Assembly: GCA_013330595.1 (NCBI GenBank)
Contig: DUIB01000016.1
Location: forward strand, 1 to 43,651
DNA length: 43,651 nucleotides
Direction of reading: 5' to 3'
From: Candidatus Woesearchaeota archaeon
GTDB taxonomy: Archaea > Nanobdellota > Nanobdellia > Woesearchaeales > UBA9642
In this document: one piece after another, positions 7,684-8,500 of the stretch
Layout of the letters: each line of letters starts with the position of its first letter
How positions within the stretch are numbered: position 1 is the first letter of the stretch
The notes under the pieces: generated by a model
Seen by the model: only the letters and a program-made list of their open reading frames with translations
What the model was told of the DNA's origin: nothing
Databases searched by the model: none
Made by a program: the position numbers and the translations under genes

Positions 7684-7837
7684 TGGGAAATATCCTATAA
7701 GATAACAAAAATTCAGGAATATTCGCAAATCATCCGCTGAACACCGAATGTTTTCCGAAAAAATCACCAATAGGCATATTAAGAATTCTGTATTACTAGA
7801 AATGCTCATAAATCAAAGAAAGAGCAGGGGGTTAAAA

Positions 7838-8080
7838 ATGGGATTGACACAAAAACGAGAAGAGCACCTGAAGAAGATGCCTATAATAGAGAGCAAGATA
7901 ACAACAAGCAAGAATGGGAGATTCCTGATACACAGGACTATAATCACGCATATAATGCCTACAGATTATTACAGGGCAGTTCTTGCAAACACAGTAAAAG
8001 TAGAAGAGCAGGATCTTAGCGATAATGAAATAGAGAAGATAATCAAAGAAGGAAGAGAATACCTAAAGGAAAGGGAATAG
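7838..8080 (+). CDS. Conserved-looking small hypothetical protein
   Basis: Internal ATG 7838 preceded by agcagggggtt RBS-like sequence; MGLTQKREEHLKKMPIIESKITTSKNGRFLIHRTIITHIMP... Confidence 0.5.
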   Translation: MGLTQKREEHLKKMPIIESKITTSKNGRFLIHRTIITHIMPTDYYRAVLANTVKVEEQDLSDNEIEKIIKEGREYLKERE

Positions 8081-8173
8081 GATTCGGATAAATGTAGCGT
8101 AATTGTCAATTTATTCTAAAGATGAGAAGAATAACAAAAGGAACTTATGATCCCATTCGTTAAATAAAAAGGT

Positions 8174-8313
8174 GGACAGCTAATCAAGTTTCCCGTACAT
8201 AAGTACAGTACAGCTTGAAACGTGAGGTTGCTTAACTCTCTCGTGAGCCAAGTTCCAAGACTCAATCCGAGTTCGAAATGGGATCGGGTGTAACCAACCT
8301 GCTATGACCGTCC
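8174..8313 (-). rRNA. rrf: 5S ribosomal RNA with a 28-nt insertion
   Basis: Reverse complement GGACGGTCATAGCAGGTTGGTTACACCCGATCCCATTTCGAACTCGGA...AGTTAAGCAACCTCACG...GTACGGGAAACTTGATTAGCTGTCC. Termini pair (GGACGG/CTGTCC), helix II pairs (AGGTTG/CAACCT), loop C CATTTCGAAC and AGTTAAGC present. Confidence 0.88.
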
Positions 8314-8335
8314 AAGAATAGGGAATAAAAAACTC

Positions 8336-8343
8336 TTTATAAA
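8336..8343 (-). promoter_or_regulatory. TATA box for the 5S rRNA gene
   Basis: Palindromic TTTATAAA centred ~27 nt upstream of the 5S 5' end (8313). Confidence 0.6.
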
Positions 8344-8359
8344 GATTTTGATTTCCTGT

Positions 8360-8480
8360 TGACTTAGCTAAGTGAAGCGCTACCATCTCGGAAATGAGAA
8401 TTAATTCTCATTGTCCGCTCAATCTTGAAAACGTAGTTTTCAAGTAGAAGATGGTAACACTGCTTCAGAAAGCTAAGTCA
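8360..8480. ncRNA. Unassigned highly structured element (candidate ncRNA or small inverted-repeat element)
   Basis: Nested helices: TGACTTAGCT/AGCTAAGTCA (10 bp), GAAGC/GCTTC, TACCATCT/AGATGGTA, enclosing two hairpins CGGAaATGAGAATTAATTCTCATtgTCCG and CTTGAAAACgtaGTTTTCAAG. No long ORF. Confidence 0.6.
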
Positions 8481-8500
8481 GTACGATTTCCTGATGCATC

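Follow-up and report, generated by a model that had tools for sequence, protein, structure and literature searches.

The folded stretch that adjoins the 5S rRNA gene in the window (the whole 43,651-nt stretch of DNA analysed here) is probably a MITE, i.e., a non-autonomous DNA transposon placed by a trans-acting transposase immediately upstream of the BRE/TATA of the 5S promoter; we assign this reading a probability of roughly 0.8. The identification follows from inverted repeats, target duplications, dispersed copies, and an empty site, which are hallmarks of such elements. The initial annotation had proposed a stand-alone RNA gene at 8360–8480, a proposal that these same features, with copies that are near-identical, displace. 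The relevant features are as follows.

8171–8315, minus strand: 5S rRNA gene (Rfam RF00001, 44.6 bits), the promoter of which is the likely insertion target.
8336–8343, minus strand: TATA box TTTATAAA of the 5S gene, read from the sequence and lying 6 nt from the left target duplication, with equal spacing in contigs C10, C16, C50, and C61.
8350–8357, plus strand: left target-site duplication GATTTCCT, read from the sequence; other copies have different 8-bp duplications.
8358–8484, plus strand: the whole element, 127 bp, delimited by alignment with the C10, C9, and C16 copies and by the duplications; intact copies are 129 bp, and 2 nt of the left repeat are lost here.
8358–8378, plus strand: left inverted repeat, GT(AT deleted)TGACTTAGCTAAGTGAAGC, compared with GTATTGACTTAGCTAAGTGAAG in C10, C9, C16, and the C50 end.
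8462–8484, minus strand: right inverted repeat, beginning GTACTGACTTAG, recognized by a pattern match at 8473–8484 and by the right ends of the copies.
8485–8492, plus strand: right target-site duplication GATTTCCT.

Gene content, the 5S gene, and the TATA boxes point to a small-genome archaeon as the host. A search of the source genome (1.35 Mb in 71 contigs) revealed three more copies of the element, located on C10, C9, and C16 and 94–98% identical. All three have the terminal inverted repeats GTAYTGACTTAG at both ends, the left repeat of 8358–8484 being 2 nt short, and the element ends are about 23 bp long and unequal (GTATTGACTTAGNTANNTGAAGC). The 8-bp direct repeats differ from copy to copy: GATTTCCT flanks 8358–8484, GATTTTAT/GATTTTAC the C10 copy, CCTGAGAT the C9 copy, and GATTATGA the C16 copy. 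Because GTAYTGACTTAG repeats and its own 8-bp duplications bound each copy, the unit is 8358–8484. The fold originally outlined at 8360–8480 is real but its limits are not those of the unit, and the lower part of its second arm is broken in the present copy, although intact in C10 and C16. The C9 element splits an ORF, and deleting the element together with one duplication restores a 110-aa ORF through the junction, that is, an empty site. Being short (127–129 bp), non-coding, and multicopy (four near-identical copies), with inverted repeats, a target duplication, and an empty site, 8358–8484 belongs to the MITE class on all tested features except a known autonomous partner.

No transposase with matching ends was found in the source genome: around its three DDE_Tnp_1 genes, the ends were either different or could not be made out, and the partnerless TAGTWRNNGACW matches, inspected for a longer element, had no inverted partner. 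Longer elements with GTAYTGACTTAG-type ends are interrupted by contig breaks just inside them, and none was seen whole: C50 and C61 break off within elements whose left end is that of 8358–8484, while C25 and C66 do so within elements with the other (right) end. C69 contains a 214-bp element that has the same ends, the 8-bp duplication TATTTTTC on both sides, and a different multi-hairpin interior. This element occupies 2740–2953 of locus L151 (C69:46500–52500), and pieces of its interior match elsewhere in the genome. Adjoining it is a 234-aa ORF (L151 3174–3878) whose match to Cas1 (PF01867, E 1.6e-18) covers the first half of that protein and which seems truncated compared with the Pfam profile. 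L156 960–2185 contains another, separate element of the DDE_Tnp_1 type, the 16-bp ends of which read AACAGTATCTCCGATT. The IS6 family was ruled out, as IS6 tips are GG (PMC7986276).

The fold itself is strong. Segment 8360–8480 has a folding energy of −50.7 kcal/mol when read as the plus strand (z −8.2) and of −55.2 kcal/mol as the minus strand (z −9.9); none of 200 shuffled sequences folded as well, and DNA folding parameters gave a z of −8.4 for 8358–8484. The nested helices described in the initial annotation are all present in the sequence. Its remark that no known tRNA, SRP, RNase P, or box C/D signature was recognizable also agrees with the Rfam scan, in which both gathering and permissive thresholds returned 5S only and no family for the folded stretch. 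Furthermore, homologues show compensatory changes: two-sided changes affect 17 of the 37 core pairs, compared with 1–8 in slid controls, and the core covariation score was unreached by shuffles.

The very stable fold, the compensatory changes, and the near-palindromic TATA box, which lies 21–28 nt upstream of the 5S start, would all suit an independent gene for a structured RNA, driven by a TATA box common to 5S. We nevertheless consider such a gene very improbable in view of the target duplications, inverted repeats, dispersed copies, and empty site. In addition, the copies occur in unrelated contexts, one of them within an ORF, no Rfam family matches, and two same-genus genomes have the TATA box in their 5S promoters but lack the element there. 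An RNA should also favour G-U on its own strand, yet G-U and A-C cells stand at 16:17 among 13 elements. Since these counts are equal, the core pairing is strand-symmetric and the covariation gives no support to a one-strand RNA; the equality favours pairing at the DNA level.

The 5S gene, the sole one found, carries a 28-nt insertion (8238–8265, minus strand) after CTCGGA, near helix III, relative to two same-genus genomes. Expanded 5S rRNAs are already known (PMC7812874), and the main text of that article makes no mention of DPANN or Woesearchaeota.

Inside the element, covariance models and pair counts delineated a conserved core with the following parts.

8377–8460, plus strand: three-way-junction core, 84 nt, with an outer stem pairing 8377–8388 with 8449–8460 (covariance models R1/R2).
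8389–8417, plus strand: arm 1, consisting of 4 bp, a one-nt purine bulge at 8413 (3′ side), 8 bp, and a 4-nt loop, identical in form in 15 of 15 copies.
8418, plus strand: single unpaired C between the arms (invariant column 42).
8419–8448, plus strand: arm 2, with the lower 4 bp mispaired here, a bulged T at 8423, and a 9-bp upper stem.

The covariance model of the 84-nt core detected about 17 copies in the source genome, a repetition that the window by itself does not reveal, plus a deleted chimera in C14. About 12 further elements have the core but other ends, TAGTTGNNGACA or TAGTAAGCGAC. These other-ended elements all measure 135 bp, except for one of 134 bp and one that a nested insert extends to 192 bp; 3-bp direct repeats flank 11 of 13. 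Core identity drops to 58%, while 92% of the cells still pair. The position of the arm-1 bulge, the single-C linker, and one arm-2 bulge are kept in all 15 copies, the last of these on either side of the arm. The C14 chimera (L018, about 2227–2331) combines a left end of the TAGTAAGCG kind with a right end of the TAGTTGCCGACA kind and has its second arm deleted; because its ends are of different kinds, element pieces do recombine. One 135-bp element (L149, C54:1–11000, at 7795–7986) houses a nested 57-bp double-hairpin repeat (AAAGAAAT...TTTCTT), and a similar repeat adjoins the C61 element.

Two other explanations of this core were weighed. The first is an ordinary MITE with the fold as a by-product, in which template-switch correction at replication forks keeps the palindromes and the arms are unselected. 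Hairpin correction can yield two-sided changes without selection, and the strand-symmetric covariation and the location of all copies in one genome are in agreement with it; palindrome correction during replication could indeed be part of the source of covariation among the copies of one genome. Correction should erase imperfections, yet the arm-1 bulge, the C linker, and the arm-2 bulge persist in all 15 copies, even where identity is as low as 58%, and the constant 135-bp length and a core common to two element kinds also speak against a by-product. We regard it as unlikely, though deserving appreciable weight. The second explanation, in which the core works at the RNA level, as a motif of the UTR-element, processing-site, or ribozyme type, and is carried because it is active in transcripts, appears improbable. 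Fixed bulges and junction residues would accord with such a motif, as would the transcription of many MITEs into stable hairpins (review PMC10969869), but the wobble pairs have no strand preference, Rfam offers no match, and insertion upstream of promoters leaves the element outside the downstream transcript.

Scans with the core model covered 60 relatives, 292 genomes from the order, and 377 from the phylum (overlapping samples, with strict filters in the wide scans), and the source genome alone was matched. Two weak core-model matches in relatives (G052, E 0.011; G025, E 0.26, rRNA-like) look unrelated. The 15-nt end motif occurred at chance level in 100 relatives. Three exact patterns had no match in viral contigs, and one loose core pattern hit 25 stretches there with scores like chance.

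Comparison of the insertion sites disclosed a constant relation to TATA boxes. A TATA-like octamer, defined as an 8-mer scoring at least 7 of 8 (promoter-region rate 0.011 per position), is positioned exactly 6 nt before the duplication in the left flanks of 8358–8484, C10, C16, C50, and C61, in the same orientation, hence in five of six clear left-end insertions (a small sample, n = 6). The chance of at least five of six at 6 nt is P about 1e-9, or about 5e-8 corrected for 50 offsets and sides. The exception, C9, lies within an ORF and has no TATA box. At the 6-nt offset, C69 has a TATA score of 6 of 8. Viewed from its right end, C66 has a TATA at 5 nt on that other side, so the insertion orientation may not be absolute. 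The distance from the element to the 5S start or a start codon ranges over 42–53 nt while the TATA distance is constant, which makes the TATA spacing the tighter quantity. Insertion falls just upstream of the BRE and leaves the core promoter intact. The TATA boxes next to the other copies belong to unrelated protein genes at a distance equal to that at 5S; the 5S TATA box is therefore the older target.

Seven of the nine duplications, read from the same end, start with GATT. Together with the TATA-free C9 insertion, this is compatible with a simple preference for AT-rich DNA plus GATT, exercised without contact with the transcription machinery. A liking for AT-rich DNA alone would leave the spacing unfixed, whereas the 6-nt TATA spacing is exact in five of six, one-sided, and less variable than the start-codon distance. 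A simple sequence preference is thus a minority possibility in our estimation.

Returning to the MITE, the proposed mechanism would involve a transposase supplied in trans that acts on the GTAYTGACTTAG ends, makes an 8-bp staggered cut, and inserts the element immediately upstream of the 5S BRE/TATA. This enzyme would be of the DDE type, probably of the Mutator-like (IS256/ISH6/ISLre2) superfamily. For placement, it may contact promoter-bound TBP/TFB or directly read TATA-N6-GATT. The forked fold may act when the element's DNA is single-stranded, as a shape that is recognized or that promotes transposition, and the core may have been exchanged by recombination between two element kinds with different ends. 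In the fullest form of this model, selection would act on the forked bulged hairpin as the unit, and the hairpin would move between two transposition systems that are unrelated but occur in the same archaeon. One of these systems would place its insertions, via the TBP/TFB-bound promoter, at a single base-pair position on the upstream side of genes. We put this forward tentatively, as a possibility that falls well short of probable.

The TATA-anchored insertion and the shared forked core make the element more interesting than an ordinary MITE. If both the hairpin as unit and TBP/TFB placement are true, the element would have no archaeal precedent as a TATA-anchored mobile element in the literature searched. 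A forked core kept by two-sided changes across different-ended elements suggests that a MITE can conserve the shape of its DNA instead of its sequence. Should the TATA spacing hold, mobile DNA steered to a constant position at promoters, with the core promoter spared, would be known from archaea as well as from bacteria (TnGBS/ISLre2/ISKra4) and yeast (Ty1/Ty3), and whether an archaeal transposase reads TBP/TFB would become testable. For strong folds beside rRNA genes, a copy-number check is needed before an RNA-gene label is given.

In yeast, Ty3 and Ty1 integration is steered by TBP-containing transcription complexes, 5S genes included, which resembles the placement proposed for the present element. 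Ty3 and Ty1 differ in being retrotransposons with 5-bp duplications, and TBP/TFB contact is for our element a supposition. The link between Ty3 and TFIIIB is cited in PMC3942029, which was also the only source found in the literature on three-way-junction MITEs or archaeal promoter-targeted IS.

Prokaryotic MITEs such as Coxiella QMITE2 and Correia share with our element a short, AT-rich, coding-free sequence, inverted repeats, 7–9 bp duplications, and a stable hairpin (PMC10969869). Unlike them, the present element has a conserved forked tip, covarying arms, and fixed bulges, and its core recurs in elements that differ in their ends and in duplication length, with two kinds of each.

ISH6 (archaeal p-MULT 2), an archaeal Mutator-like IS, likewise has an AT-rich duplicated target, with the consensus AANATNTT compared to GATTNNNN here; the passages of PMC3942029 that describe ISH6 report no TATA spacing. 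Bacterial Mutator-like elements, as presented in that article, combine oriented insertion upstream of promoters with 8–9 bp duplications and 18–39 bp ends. Among these, TnGBS/ISLre2/ISKra4 are described as keeping a constant distance and a single orientation relative to the promoters upstream of which they insert; their ends are unequal and their duplications 8–9 bp, and our element has all these traits in common with them (PMC3942029). Their described target is the bacterial sigma-A promoter, 15–17 bp upstream of −35, whereas the anchor here is an archaeal TATA box. Because its 8-bp duplication, its unequal ends of about 23 bp, and its oriented, fixed-distance insertion upstream of promoters (five of six, in a small sample) match this promoter-targeting group, the element is a putative archaeal relative of TnGBS/ISLre2/ISKra4.
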